Below, piece by piece: positions 38,270 through 43,659 of a stretch of 64,000 nt of DNA (the stretch's first letter is position 1; each line of letters opens with the position of its first letter). The DNA lies in NCBI GenBank assembly GCA_947494675.1, contig CANLVP010000001.1, positions 372,001-436,000 of the forward strand. The letters are read 5' to 3'. Origin of the DNA: an uncultured Paracoccaceae bacterium. Its GTDB lineage: Bacteria > Pseudomonadota > Alphaproteobacteria > Rhodobacterales > Rhodobacteraceae. Position numbers and translations under genes: made by a program. The notes under the pieces were generated by a model, which was not told where the DNA came from, ran no database searches, and saw only the letters and a list, made by a program, of their open reading frames with translations.

Positions 38270-38476
38270 ATGGCTAATGGCACCGTGAAATGGTTCAACT
38301 CTACCAAAGGCTTCGGCTTTATCGCTCCTGAAGGCGGCTCCAAGGACGTATTCGTCCACATCTCCGCTGTTGAGCGTTCCGGCCTGACCGGCCTGGCCGA
38401 CAACCAGAAAGTCACTTTCGACATCGAAGCAGGCCGTGACGGCCGCGAGTCGGCTGTGAACCTTGCTCTCGCCTAA
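38270..38476 (+). CDS. Cold-shock protein, CspA family (first copy)
   Basis: 68 residues forming a single cold-shock domain. RNP1-like [10 protein letters not shown] and RNP2-like [14 protein letters not shown] are the two single-stranded nucleic-acid-binding strands. These small cytosolic proteins melt RNA structure and bind mRNA. It is one of two tandem paralogs that differ at only a few positions. A GC-rich hairpin follows the stop. Confidence 0.96.
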
Positions 38477-38704: not shown

Positions 38705-38914
38705 ATGGCCTCAGGCACTGTCAAATGGTTCAACACCACCAAAGGTTACGGGTTTATTGCCCCAGACGGTGGTACCAAGGACGTCTTCGTCCACATTTCA
38801 GCCGTCGAACGGTCCGGGCTCACCGGGTTGAAGGACGATCAGAAAGTCAATTTCGACATCGAAGCCGGACGTGATGGCCGCGAAAGCGCCGTCAATCTGA
38901 CGCTCGCTGACTAG
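38705..38914 (+). CDS. Cold-shock protein, CspA family (second copy)
   Basis: 69 residues, nearly identical to the first copy (KGYGFIAPDG and [14 protein letters not shown]), with RNP1 and RNP2 intact. Its ribosome site (AGGAGG) is stronger than that of the first copy. Tandem csp genes with separate promoters suggest different temperature or growth-phase expression. It ends in a strong terminator shared with the convergent dodecin gene. Confidence 0.96.
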   Translation: MASGTVKWFNTTKGYGFIAPDGGTKDVFVHISAVERSGLTGLKDDQKVNFDIEAGRDGRESAVNLTLAD

Positions 38915-38955: not shown

Positions 38956-39159
38956 TTAGTCCGCAAGAACGAATGTGACTTTCAACACGACGCGGTAGCT
39001 GGTGATTTTACCGTCGTCCACGGTGACCTTCTGGTCCGCGACCTAGGCGCCTTTGATCCCTTTGAGGGTTTTAGACGCCCGTTTGATCCCATTCTCGACG
39101 GCATCATCAAATGACTTAGACGACTCGCTGATAATTTCAGTGACTTTTGCGACAGACAT
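38956..39159 (-). pseudogene. Dodecin gene interrupted by an in-frame amber codon
   Basis: The frame from ATG 39159 (AAGGGAAC upstream) to TAA 38956 encodes a 67-residue dodecin, a small flavin-binding protein that assembles as a dodecamer. The first half reads MSVAKVTEIISESSKSFDDA and continues RASKTLKGIKGA. Codon 39 (39045-39043) is TAG. The rest, VADQKVTVDDGKITSYRVVL and KVTFVLAD, matches the dodecin C-terminus. The common family sequence here is GAW, so TGG to TAG at the flavin-stacking tryptophan explains the lesion. Both halves keep sensible codons, so the change is recent, a read error, or suppressed. No internal restart is evident. Confidence 0.88.
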
Positions 39160-39198
39160 GGCTGTTCCCTTCTTCTTGTGTCCCGGCCAAAGCCTACC

Positions 39199-39783
39199 CT
39201 AAGGGCCCGTCCAATCCACGTCTTTCGCCGCGTCAACCACAAGCCCGCCATCCCGAAATGGCACCATCAGGGCGCGCGCCGCCGCCTCATCCGTGCCTAA
39301 CCACGTTGAAATTGCGTCCTTTTCCAGGATCACGCCCATGCGGTGATGAATGTCGCGAACATCCGCCGATGGTGCGCATGTCACCGTCGCCACCTGCGCG
39401 ACCTCGGTCCCACCGGGCGCACGCCAGACGTCAAAGATCGCCGCGAACCAGATCAACGCGCCATCCGCACGGGCAATACGCCACGCAGTTTTGCGTCGTT
39501 TCTCGCCGGTCCATTCGTACCATCCGTCCACCGGCACCGCCGCGCGGCGGACCCCGGCATAGGCCGATTTGTCAAAAACCGTCTCAGACCGGGCATTGAT
39601 GATCGTCTCCATCACCGGTCGGCCACGGGCATTGACCCGGCCAACAGGGATCATCCCCCAGCGCATCCGCTGGGCACCCTCTGCCGACAGCACCTGCAAT
39701 TCCTGCCCCGGCGCCATGTTGAACCGCGGCGGATCGTCCAGCCCCAGTCCCGGATCGGACGTCAGGAAAAGCCGCCCGGGCAT
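39199..39783 (-). CDS. SRAP-domain protein (YedK/HMCES-like) with Pro in place of Cys2
   Basis: 194 residues of the SOS response-associated peptidase family. Conserved blocks are present: MRWGMIPVG, TIINARSETVF (N63), VPVDGWYEWTG (E90) and DIHHRMGVIL (H146). These match the active-site Asn, Glu and His of YedK and HMCES. The family starts MCGR, and after Met removal Cys2 links to abasic sites in single-stranded DNA. Here the start is MPGRLFL. The ATG directly follows the tesA-like stop (TAA-ATG), and no MCGR start exists upstream. Met removal would expose an N-terminal proline. Confidence 0.88.
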   Translation of the reverse strand: MPGRLFLTSDPGLGLDDPPRFNMAPGQELQVLSAEGAQRMRWGMIPVGRVNARGRPVMETIINARSETVFDKSAYAGVRRAAVPVDGWYEWTGEKRRKTAWRIARADGALIWFAAIFDVWRAPGGTEVAQVATVTCAPSADVRDIHHRMGVILEKDAISTWLGTDEAAARALMVPFRDGGLVVDAAKDVDWTGP

Positions 39784-40461
39784 TTAGTCGATGCCCTCAA
39801 CAAAAGCCAAAACCTCTGGCCCAAGTGCCGCGACGATCACCGCTACACCCTCTGCCGTAGGATGCAAACCATCGCCTTGCAGATACCCCAATAGCCCCTC
39901 TTGGCCCGCATCATCAATCAGCGCGGCAAAGAACGACGGCACCAATGGCGCGTCGTAAGTTGCGGCTAATTCTGGATAGATCGCATCAAATTCCGCTTTG
40001 TAATCAGCACCATAATTGGCACCCACGTCCAGCCCGACGATCATCGTATCCACGTCTTTTGCAGCCGCCGCCGCCATGATCCCGTCCAGATTGTCGCGCG
40101 CCAGCCCCGGCGGCAGCCCCCGCAAATAGTCGTTCGCGCCCAAGGCCACGATCAACCCATCCACGTCCTCCGTCAGCGTCCAATCGACCCGCGCCAACCC
40201 GCCTGCCGTGGTGTCCCCGGACAGCCCCGCGTTGATCACGGTCACATCCGCGCCCGCCGCGTCGAGCCATGCCTGCAACTGCGGCACAAAGCCCTCTGCC
40301 GTCTCTAGCCCGTAGCCCGCGACCAGACTGTCACCCAATGCGGCGATGGTGACGGTCTCGGCCTGTGCCGCACTTGCTGCAATTGTCATGAAACTGATGT
40401 TGAGAACTGCGCATTTCGCCCCATATGCCAAAGGTGCACACCGATCAAAGGCCCACCTCAT
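39784..40461 (-). CDS. tesA: Arylesterase/lysophospholipase, TesA-type SGNH hydrolase
   Basis: About 225 residues. The SGNH blocks are ALGDSLVAGYG (nucleophile Ser), NAGLSGDTTAGG, VALGANDYLRG and DGLHPTAEG (Asp-His). An N-terminal export signal is expected, with FMTIAASAAQAETV as the cleavage region. The best start is unclear: ATG 40461 gives a basic n-region, while TTG 40431 or ATG 40389 are alternatives. The 40461 start overlaps the divergent ybbA start. The tesA/ybbA-ybbP arrangement matches enterobacteria. The enzyme cleaves acyl esters or thioesters in the periplasm. Confidence 0.85.
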   Translation of the reverse strand: MRWAFDRCAPLAYGAKCAVLNISFMTIAASAAQAETVTIAALGDSLVAGYGLETAEGFVPQLQAWLDAAGADVTVINAGLSGDTTAGGLARVDWTLTEDVDGLIVALGANDYLRGLPPGLARDNLDGIMAAAAAKDVDTMIVGLDVGANYGADYKAEFDAIYPELAATYDAPLVPSFFAALIDDAGQEGLLGYLQGDGLHPTAEGVAVIVAALGPEVLAFVEGID

Positions 40462-41146
40462 GACTGACCCCGTTCTTTCGCTTTCTGATGCCGCCCTTTC
40501 CCTGATGGGCAATGCGGGCCGCGTCGACATCCTGCACGACATTTCGCTGGATGTGCCAAAGGGCGAAACGCTGGGGTTGATCGGGCCAAGTGGGTCGGGC
40601 AAATCGTCTCTCCTGATGCTGATGGGCGGGCTGGAAACCGCAACCTCGGGGTCAGTGACGGCCTTGGGCCAAGACCTGACGACCATGAACGAAGACCAGC
40701 TTGCCCGCTTTCGCAGGGATAATATGGGGGTGGTGTTTCAGTCTTTCCACCTCATTCCCACCATGACCGCTTTGGAAAATGTGGCAACCCCGCTTGAATT
40801 GGCAGGCCACCGCGATGCCTTTGATCGGGCCGCGGCAGAGCTTGACGCCGTCGGCCTGTCCGACCGCGCCGATCACTACCCCAGCCAGATGTCGGGCGGT
40901 GAACAGCAACGCGTGGCCCTTGCCCGCGCATCTGCCCCGCGCCCCAAAATCCTGCTGGCGGATGAGCCCACCGGCAACCTCGATGAAACCAACGGCCAGG
41001 CCATCATGCAGCTCTTGTTTGATCTGCGCGACCGCCATGGCGCGACGCTCATCATGGTGACCCATAGCCGCGAACTCGCCAGCCGCTGCAACCGCGTGGT
41101 CCGCCTGCGCGATGGCCGCATCGACACTGCAAAGGCCGCCGCATGA
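40460..41146 (+). CDS. ybbA: ABC transporter ATPase, YbbA/LolD type
   Basis: 228 residues with Walker A GPSGSGKSS, signature MSGGEQQRVALARA, Walker B ILLADEPTGNLDETN and an H-loop in MVTHSRELA. The LFDLRDRHG and FQSFHLIPTMTALENV segments are typical of the MacB/LolD/YbbA group. ATG 40460 is preceded by AAAGG at eight bases. It pairs with the FtsX-like permease downstream (4-bp overlap). The complex is a type VII ABC system (mechanotransmission) whose physiological role is poorly defined. Confidence 0.93.
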   Translation: MTDPVLSLSDAALSLMGNAGRVDILHDISLDVPKGETLGLIGPSGSGKSSLLMLMGGLETATSGSVTALGQDLTTMNEDQLARFRRDNMGVVFQSFHLIPTMTALENVATPLELAGHRDAFDRAAAELDAVGLSDRADHYPSQMSGGEQQRVALARASAPRPKILLADEPTGNLDETNGQAIMQLLFDLRDRHGATLIMVTHSRELASRCNRVVRLRDGRIDTAKAAA

Positions 41147-43659
41147 GCCTGCGCCTCGCCACGACATTCGCACGCCGCGAATTGCGCGGGGGCCTGCGCG
41201 GCTTTCGCGTGTTCCTCGCCTGTCTCGCCCTTGGGGTCGCCGCCATCGCCGCCGTTGGCACCGTGCGCGCTGGCATCACCGCAGGTCTTACCGAAAAAGG
41301 GGCCGAACTTTTGGGCGGCGACGCCGAGGCGCGCTTCACCTACCGCTTTGCCACGCCGCGAGAACGCGCATTCTTTGAAGACATCTCTGACGATCTGGCC
41401 GAAGTCGTTGATTTTCGATCGATGGCCGTCGTGGGCAGCGGCGACACGGCGGAACGTGGCCTCACGCAGGTCATGGCCGTCGACAGCAATTACCCCCTGA
41501 TCGGGCAGGTCACGCTTGACCCCGACATACCGCTGCACAACGCCTTCGCCGACAACGGCGGCGTGATGGAACGGGTGCTGGCCGACCGCCTTGGCCTGAC
41601 CCCCGGCGACACGTTCAGCCTTGGCTCAACCGAATTCACGCTCCGCGCCATCCTGCTGCGCTACCCTGACAATGCCTCTGGCGGGTTCGGCCTTGGGCCC
41701 CGCACCATCGTGCGCACGGCGGACCTTGAAAACTCCGGTCTGATTGTCGAAGGCACGTTGTTTGAAACTCAATACCGCCTTGATTTGCCCGATGAAACTG
41801 ACCTCGATGCGACAGAGACTTTGGCAAAATCCACCCTGCCCGACGCAGGCTTACGCTGGCGCGACAGCCGCCGGGGCGCTGGCGGGACAGAGCGGTTTAT
41901 CGACCGCATCGGGTCCTTCCTGATCCTTGTCGGCCTATCCGGTTTGGCCGTGGGCGGCGTCGGTGTCAGCGCCGCAGTGCGGGCATATCTGGCAGGCAAG
42001 ACGGGCACCATCGCCACGCTCAAGACGCTGGGCGCCACCCGCCGCACGATCTTTCTGACCTATTTCATCCAAATTGGCGCGCTGACGCTTTTGGGGATCA
42101 CCATCGGCCTGATCCTTGGCGGCGGCATCCCCATGTTGCTGGCCCCGATGATCGAGGCGTCCCTGCCCGTGCCCGCCAACTTTGCCTTTAACCCCGCGCC
42201 GCTTGCAGAGGCTGCGATCTATGGCCTGCTGGCCGCGCTGATCTTTACCCTCTGGCCCCTCGCCCGCACCGACGACATCCGCGCCGCCACCCTGTTTCGC
42301 GACGCCATGGCCAGCGGCAACACCCTGCCGCGCTGGCCCTATATCGCCATGACGCTCTTGTTGGTTGCGACCCTTCTGGGCCTCGCCGCATGGTTTTCCG
42401 GCACGCTTTGGCTGACCCTGTGGACTGCAGGCGGGATCATCGGCGCGCTCACAATCCTGATCCTCGCCGCCCTCGCCGTGCGCTGGATCGCCCGCCGCAG
42501 CCGCAAGACCGCACGCGGTCGCCCTGCCCTGCGCCTTGCCCTTGGGGCCATCGGTGCCCGCGGGGGTGAGGCGACGAGCGTTGTCCTCTCGCTTGGCCTT
42601 GGCCTGTCGGTTCTTGCTGCCGTCGGCCAAATCGATGGCAATCTGCGCAACGCCTTCAACGACGAATTGCCGGACGTCGCCCCCAGCTACTTCTTCGTGG
42701 ATATACAGCCCGACCAGATCGACGGCTTCCGCGAAAGGCTCGACAATGATCCCGCCGTCAGTCGCGTGGATGCGGCCCCCATGCTGCGCGGCATCATCAC
42801 CGCCATCAACGGCATCCCGGCAGAAGAATTCGCCGAGAGCCACTGGGTCGTGCGCGGCGACCGCGGTGTGACCTACGACAACACCTTGCCCGACAACACC
42901 CGCGTCACCGAAGGTGAATGGTGGCCCGAAGACTACACCGGCCCGCCCCTCATCAGCTTTTCCGCCGAAGAGGCCGCAGAGATAGGCCTGCAAATCGGCG
43001 ATGAAATGACCGTCAACATCCTGGGTCGCAATATCACCGGCACCGTTGCGTCCTTCAGAGAAGTGACATGGGAAGACGCCGGCATAGGCTTTGTCCTGTC
43101 CATGAACGAGGCCGCACTCGCTGGTGCCCCCCATAGCTGGATCAGCACTGTCTACGCCGAAGAAGAGGCCGAGGCGCAGATCCTCCGCGATCTTGCAACC
43201 GCCTATCCCAACATCACAGCCATCCGCATCCGCGACGCCATCGCGCAGGTGGCAACGCTGGTTGAGGGCATCTCTGCCGCCACCCGCTACGGCGCGCTCG
43301 CCACGCTTGTCACCGGTTTTCTGGTGCTGATCGGGGCCGCCGCCGCCGGTGAACGCGCCCGCACGTTCGAGGCGGCCGTGCTCAAAACCATCGGTGCCAC
43401 CCGTGGCCGTATCGTCAGCAGCTTTGCGATGCGCGCCGCCCTCTTGGGCCTCGCCGCGGGTGTCGTCGCCCTCGCCGCTGGCATTTTGGGCGGTTGGGCG
43501 GTACAAACGTTTATTATGGAAAATGATTACACGGTGATCTGGGGCAATGCGCTGGGGATCGTCGGGGGCGGCATTATCGTCTCACTCCTTGCAGGTCTTG
43601 CCTTTGCAGCCCGCCCATTGGCGGCGAAACCCGCACAAGTTTTGCGGGCCCGCGAATGA
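41143..43659 (+). CDS. ybbP: ABC transporter permease with two FtsX domains, YbbP type
   Basis: 838 residues, starting four bases before the ybbA stop. It has an N-terminal membrane helix, a large periplasmic domain (about 55-235), helices with FtsX motif KTGTIATLKTLGATRRTIFL, a second periplasmic domain and the second FtsX repeat (FEAAVLKTIGATRGRIVSSF). About ten helices are visible, as in YbbP. It forms the membrane part of the YbbAP complex and may present periplasmic TesA with substrate. The last codons overlap the next gene as ATGA. Confidence 0.92.
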   Translation: MSLRLATTFARRELRGGLRGFRVFLACLALGVAAIAAVGTVRAGITAGLTEKGAELLGGDAEARFTYRFATPRERAFFEDISDDLAEVVDFRSMAVVGSGDTAERGLTQVMAVDSNYPLIGQVTLDPDIPLHNAFADNGGVMERVLADRLGLTPGDTFSLGSTEFTLRAILLRYPDNASGGFGLGPRTIVRTADLENSGLIVEGTLFETQYRLDLPDETDLDATETLAKSTLPDAGLRWRDSRRGAGGTERFIDRIGSFLILVGLSGLAVGGVGVSAAVRAYLAGKTGTIATLKTLGATRRTIFLTYFIQIGALTLLGITIGLILGGGIPMLLAPMIEASLPVPANFAFNPAPLAEAAIYGLLAALIFTLWPLARTDDIRAATLFRDAMASGNTLPRWPYIAMTLLLVATLLGLAAWFSGTLWLTLWTAGGIIGALTILILAALAVRWIARRSRKTARGRPALRLALGAIGARGGEATSVVLSLGLGLSVLAAVGQIDGNLRNAFNDELPDVAPSYFFVDIQPDQIDGFRERLDNDPAVSRVDAAPMLRGIITAINGIPAEEFAESHWVVRGDRGVTYDNTLPDNTRVTEGEWWPEDYTGPPLISFSAEEAAEIGLQIGDEMTVNILGRNITGTVASFREVTWEDAGIGFVLSMNEAALAGAPHSWISTVYAEEEAEAQILRDLATAYPNITAIRIRDAIAQVATLVEGISAATRYGALATLVTGFLVLIGAAAAGERARTFEAAVLKTIGATRGRIVSSFAMRAALLGLAAGVVALAAGILGGWAVQTFIMENDYTVIWGNALGIVGGGIIVSLLAGLAFAARPLAAKPAQVLRARE

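Follow-up and report, generated by a model that had tools for sequence, protein, structure and literature searches.

The window, a stretch of 64,000 nucleotides from an uncultured Paracoccaceae bacterium, contains on its reverse strand at positions 39199–39783 an open reading frame for a protein of 194 amino acids with the N-terminal sequence MPGRLFLTSDPG. A search against Pfam gave SRAP (PF02586) as the sole match, scoring 134.4 bits where the cut-off is 27.1, and the AlphaFold2 model, made from a 60-row alignment (pLDDT 93.9, pTM 0.90), gave 21 matches with E ≤0.001 when run against the PDB with Foldseek, all of them SRAP structures (TM-scores to the query 0.66–0.76). These include DNA-bound HMCES, 6NUA, which shows the crosslink of YedK, and 8D2M, the Schiff-base complex of YedK C2A. 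Profile match and predicted fold together place the protein in the SRAP superfamily, and no match to Fpg or Nei appeared in either the Pfam search or the significant fold matches.

The second codon of the gene (39778–39780, reverse strand) encodes proline at the place where YedK and HMCES have cysteine, a residue described in the founding paper on SRAP as absolutely conserved and always second (PMC3765255) and called invariant in a paper on YedK (PMC9436759). The start codon is fixed, since the TAA of the preceding gene directly abuts the ATG, and with TAA as the codon before it there is no upstream MCGR start. In 74 of 95 loci of the clade described below, the stretch from the preceding in-frame stop to the xPGR start holds no alternative start codon. 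A mis-annotated start or a sequencing error is ruled out by the abutting stop and by the presence of Pro2 in all 97 distinct members, and the reading of the initial annotation, MPGR in place of MCGR and thereby Cys2 changed to proline, is borne out by the open reading frame, the fixed start and the clade-wide proline.

Genes surrounding the Pro2-SRAP gene

Directly upstream, on the same strand at 39784–40686, lies an open reading frame of 300 amino acids for a TesA-like GDSL esterase (Pfam Lipase_GDSL_2, domain at residues 116–281), the true start of which is probably internal. Divergently oriented on the forward strand are genes for an ABC transporter ATPase (40346–41146, Pfam ABC_tran), which we take to be YbbA-like, and an FtsX-type permease (41143–43659, Pfam FtsX), presumably YbbP-like. 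When 79 related loci were compared, a tesA-like gene was found upstream and on the same strand in 67, and for 62 of these the spacing is -1 to +9 bases; matches to the ABC ATPase were found in 75 loci (71 on the strand opposite SRAP) and to the FtsX-type permease in 67. In the 12 loci where no tesA was found the neighbours vary, as judged by Pfam on five neighbour proteins: L063 and L098 have a RidA-type (Ribonuc_L-PSP) gene upstream, L063 and L099 a gene for a ParA/MipZ-type ATPase downstream, and L054 a dicarboxylate symporter upstream. No recurring repair gene was recognised among the neighbours. SOS control was considered and rejected; the exact motif GTTC-N7-GTTC occurs three times in the window, no more frequently than expected by chance, and its nearest copy is about 3 kb off. 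A role in anti-phage defence was likewise rejected, PADLOC giving no match for either the SRAP protein or the esterase.

Two further features were observed beside the locus. A dodecin-like gene (38960–39160, reverse strand) carries an in-frame TAG in the window, and in the relatives L033–L036, L039 and L040 its frame is intact with Trp at the place of the TAG. Two similar cold-shock protein genes stand in tandem on the forward strand (38270–38476 and 38705–38914), and matches to cold-shock protein genes were found in 60 of the 79 related loci.

The Pro2 clade and its pocket

The window's family was sampled with 198 genomes, 25 of which contain a close relative of the protein (58–100% identity, 210–435 bits), all 25 beginning M/V-PGR, while the best other SRAP match among those listed in these genomes scored 107 bits. 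A scan of named genomes, from which the best 80 of 225 relatives were analysed, placed them in Ruegeria, Sulfitobacter, Shimia, Yoonia, Tateyamaria, Roseobacter, Loktanella and others, with Pro2 in 79 of the 80 loci (one as PGQ), the N-terminus of L058 being lost at a contig edge. A spread beyond the family is unsupported, since only four genomes in a class-wide sample of 385 gave a match above 137 bits (each at least 330 bits) and all four belong to the family. In a tree of 88 SRAP rows, computed without the first four residues, the 26 clade rows are monophyletic with a branch support of 100/100 and a branch length of 1.52. No natural Pro2 SRAP clade was reported in the literature searched, a search whose scope left out most subscription papers and all preprints.

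The alignment of 97 distinct clade proteins, which excludes L050, whose frame is disrupted by masked bases, and L058, truncated at a contig edge, revealed Pro2 and Gly3 in all 97 and Arg4 in 96. Asn63 (codon 39595–39597), Arg65, Glu67, Glu90 (39514–39516), Trp91, Thr135, His146 (39346–39348) and Arg148 are each present in 97 of 97, the codons all being on the reverse strand. We take Asn63, Glu90 and His146 to be Asn75, Glu105 and His160 of YedK, from an alignment to the YedK sequence, the YedK chains of the PDB giving the same register. That these three residues are retained had been claimed by the initial annotation with the same numbering, and it holds for the whole clade; the MPGR homologues do form a clade with conserved Asn, Glu and His, and neither a true MCGR start nor loss of the pocket in an MPGR homologue was found.

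The clade also carries an Arg-rich loop of its own at residues 48–55 (GRVNARGR; 39619–39642, reverse strand), with R49, R53 and R55 in all 97 proteins and G48 in 96, at a place where position 48 is Trp in 119 of 125 Cys2 SRAPs. The C-terminus is shorter, the clade proteins being 193–213 amino acids long compared to 229 for the Cys2 paralogue. DNA binding may therefore differ between the two types.

All four proline codons are used for Pro2 (CCG 71, CCC 16, CCA 6 and CCT 2 in 95 distinct genes), and dN/dS was about 0.06–0.15 in eight hand-chosen pairs of clade genes, so that the clade looks to be under purifying selection. Random decay is ruled out by the invariant pocket together with these dN/dS values from eight chosen pairs, and the Ala2 and Ser/Thr2 clades described below stand in contrast. 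Candidate origins from mobile elements were also rejected: all 46 matching phage records and all 1563 matching plasmid records were below 60% identity, thus giving no close relative, and on viral contigs, where 80 of 100 relatives were retained, the best identity was 36%.

The window's genome gives a single further SRAP match, to a protein of 229 amino acids with the canonical MCGR start. At least two SRAP Pfam matches were found in 26 of the 28 genomes carrying a clade member, and in 23 of the 28 a second SRAP begins MCGR or LCGR. As for the others, the second SRAP of G448 is divergent with the start MCNLY, that of G171 is divergent without a clear start, G063 has Pro2 forms only, and in G078 and G146, drafts about 83% complete, no second SRAP was found by the Pfam search.

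Residue 150 and other variants of position 2

For comparison with the clade a set of 125 Cys2 SRAPs was chosen by their CGR start, so that Cys2 is uniform by construction while Pro150 is not. Fourteen columns are at least 97% uniform across this set, and the Pro2 clade departs from them at two exactly, by C2P and by P150G (YedK Pro164; codon 39334–39336, reverse strand). Position 150 is Pro in 125 of 125 Cys2 SRAPs and in the clade Gly in 94 and Ala in three of the 97 proteins. Among 63 distinct viral Cys2 SRAPs, a motif search likewise gave proline after H-x-R-x in 62. Standing four residues past the catalytic His, position 150 may lie near residue 2 in space.

A second MPGR-starting SRAP, L155 in the genome G063, was found in place of the Cys2 paralogue. 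In the tree it groups with three Cys2 rows (99/90), inside the family's Cys2 clade, on an end branch of 0.74, and the 29 nearest relatives that were extracted (at most 62% identity) all begin MCGR. With L155 nested among Cys2 proteins, Pro2 has arisen at least twice, the independent recurrence being that of one genome and one long branch. Against the 14 near-invariant columns L155 shows C to P at position 2 and P to G at position 150 and keeps the other 12. It is not generally clade-like, since of the 31 columns separating the clade from 48 Cys2 SRAPs of the family it shares three only (2, 123 and 150), the same number as is shared by two Cys2 sequences. That Pro2 comes with Gly or Ala at position 150 is the strongest single result. 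In G063 both SRAPs are of the Pro2 type, with independent origins (L155 / L161 / L359), and no Cys2 SRAP was found there.

A survey of position 2 covered 88 loci (L191–L279 without L270; Cys starts other than CGR were read by eye) and revealed 78 with Cys2 (53 as CGR), three with Ala/Thr2 (L220–L222), five with Ser/Thr2, one with Pro2 and one with no clear start (L223). The sole Pro2 protein, L239, is a member of the clade. The 80 viral loci reduced to 64 distinct ones, 63 of which have a nearby start followed by Cys, with L443 cut by a contig edge.

The loci L220–L222 together with L310–L339 form, in another family (f197), a conserved Ala2 (or Thr2) SRAP clade that has lost Glu and His of the catalytic pocket and appears to be a pseudo-SRAP in wide retention; a query from it matches 98 of 101 genomes, some of which matches may be non-members. 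In the 30 best of these 98 genomes Glu is absent in 30 of 30, His is absent in 30 of 30 and Pro150 is kept in 30 of 30. In a second group, L280–L292 of family f189, proteins with Ser/Thr2 (starts such as MSTHYE) have a pocket that is eroded in part and stand beside relatives with Cys2 (MCSHY). Here Glu is absent in four of 13 proteins, Asn is kept in 11 and Pro150 in 12 (13 of 30 loci, full length and at least 52% identity, one or more having Ile2), and the His column holds other residues in all 13, the alignment being uncertain at that place and some proteins having a His nearby. In both groups the pocket is eroded where Cys2 has been lost, and Pro150 is nearly always kept, which ties P150G to Pro2 and not to the loss of Cys2 in general.

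Possible chemistry of the Pro2 proteins

Removal of Met1 before Pro-Gly is expected from the specificity of methionine aminopeptidase, which would leave Pro2 as the N-terminal residue. In YedK the N-terminal amine attacks the opened sugar of the abasic site, with Glu105 driving formation of the Schiff base and His160 assisting ring opening, after which the Cys2 thiol closes a thiazolidine (PMC9436759). The same source describes the C2A mutant of YedK as cleaving abasic DNA in a Glu105-dependent manner, by way of a Schiff base formed at the N-terminal amine; cleavage becomes 25-fold slower when Glu105 to Gln is added, and the values for C2A are 0.05 for the lyase and 1.7 for the Schiff-base step, in the units of the figure legend. 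For Nei2 an N-terminal proline is given as a competent nucleophile at abasic sites, with P2C abolishing the lyase activity (PMC11323726), in agreement with the initial annotation, which had stated that Fpg and Nei use such a proline to attack abasic sites through a Schiff base.

Compared to the Cys2-type SRAPs (E. coli YedK, human HMCES; PF02586), the window protein is homologous with the same predicted fold and keeps the Asn/Glu/His pocket and two arginines. It differs by Pro2 in place of the crosslinking Cys2, by Gly/Ala150 in place of Pro, by the Arg-rich loop in place of Trp and by the shorter C-terminus, and it is without the thiol required for the thiazolidine crosslink. The YedK C2A mutant (8D2M) is likewise without the thiol and has the same acid-base residues, and a free N-terminal amine is expected in the window protein as well; the mutant, however, has an engineered primary amine, while the window protein would have a natural secondary amine paired with a change at position 150. 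With Fpg and Nei (e.g. Nei2) it has in common an encoded Met1-Pro2, Pro2 being their proposed Schiff-base nucleophile, but their fold is unrelated to SRAP and is not that of the window protein.

We favour, with slightly more than even confidence, a neofunctionalised SRAP that would act as a natural Schiff-base abasic-site enzyme, probably a single-strand lyase with turnover, alongside the Cys2 SRAP. Methionine aminopeptidase would remove Met1 and expose Pro2, whose secondary amine would be the nucleophile in a SRAP pocket that is intact in other respects. His146 and Glu90 would open the sugar of the abasic site, and attack of Pro2 on C1' would give an iminium (Schiff base). Since a thiol for closing a stable thiazolidine is absent, this intermediate would be resolved by beta-elimination, with a strand cut, or by hydrolysis, and the enzyme would act beside the Cys2 SRAP, maker of the long-lived protective crosslink. 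An abasic-site enzyme with turnover is favoured because the residues required for the steps leading to the Schiff base are kept and the locking thiol is absent, and a natural Schiff-base enzyme because YedK C2A is a published, Glu105-dependent N-terminal Schiff-base lyase.

Two results argue for function, the shared C2P and P150G of the two origins and the erosion of the pocket in other SRAPs without Cys2. Further support may be taken from the predicted fold with its matches to 6NUA and 8D2M, from the Cys2 paralogue in 23 of 28 carriers and from the apparent purifying selection in the eight pairs. The switch to Schiff-base or lyase chemistry proposed by the initial annotation is thus partly supported, and well supported as a hypothesis, by the evolutionary pattern and the published mutant chemistry. 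Counting against a lyase are the genomic context, where it is a tesA-like gene and not a repair gene that recurs (67 of 79 loci) and no LexA-type motif is near, the altered loop and shorter C-terminus, by which DNA binding may differ, the recurrence of Pro2 in one genome on a long branch, and the Nei2 precedent for Pro2, which lies in an unrelated fold.

Cutting need not be the outcome either, since the cutting by YedK C2A is slow compared to its Schiff-base step. Next after the lyase we rank a reversible guard, in which the Schiff base of Pro2 would mostly hydrolyse and the protein would shield single-strand abasic sites with neither a stable crosslink nor a cut. This reading, which we hold to be unlikely, draws on the same conservation of the pocket and on a formation of the Schiff base in YedK C2A much faster than the strand cleavage (PMC9436759), and P150G might have evolved to alter how the intermediate is resolved. 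However, the thiol-less YedK does cleave DNA (PMC9436759) and the N-terminal proline of Nei2 supports cleavage (PMC11323726).

The coupling to the tesA-like gene is not predicted by the Schiff-base hypothesis. Together with the lack of a recognised repair gene among the neighbours and of a LexA-type motif nearby it keeps alive a substrate other than DNA, namely another aldehyde or carbonyl, the pathway of which would be connected with the TesA-like esterase and with the divergent ABC system, with Pro2 working as in other enzymes with an N-terminal proline. The directly upstream position of the tesA-like gene and its close spacing in 62 of 67 loci, the RidA-type genes in two of the loci without tesA and the loss of Trp at position 48 would all fit. 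We nevertheless consider it quite unlikely, as the arginines aligned to R77 and R162 of YedK are present in 97 of 97 clade proteins and such arginines are predicted to contact DNA in a homologue (PMC3765255, numbered for that protein; the match is by our own alignment), the new loop brings three invariant arginines, and neighbours in an operon are not required to share a pathway. Least likely of all is a pseudoenzyme with a structural or binding role and no covalent chemistry, which is what other SRAPs without Cys2 look like (the Ala2 clade lacks Glu and His in 30 of 30), but Asn, Glu and His are kept in 97 of 97 with Pro2 invariant in the clade, and the second origin repeats the same two changes.

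Returning to the lyase, we propose tentatively, with rather less than even confidence, that C2P with P150G (YedK Pro164) has in at least two natural origins turned a suicide crosslinker of abasic sites into a Schiff-base lyase with turnover, and that roseobacters may run both chemistries, one to lock the site and one to release or cut it. The change of Cys2 to Pro with the pocket preserved, carried by some marine bacteria in a second SRAP that mostly accompanies the ordinary one, suggests a shift from a protein that sticks to damage to an enzyme that reacts and lets go. The SRAP family occurs across life and its cysteine has been called absolutely conserved; one whole clade and one further, independent protein have replaced this cysteine and preserved the pocket. 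For annotators this is a warning that a match to the SRAP model need not indicate a crosslinker. Should the protein be a lyase, nature would already have made the conversion hinted at by the laboratory C2A mutant, and the paired position 150 would show structural biologists where the control of crosslink versus release may lie, a matter of current interest for how HMCES crosslinks are resolved.
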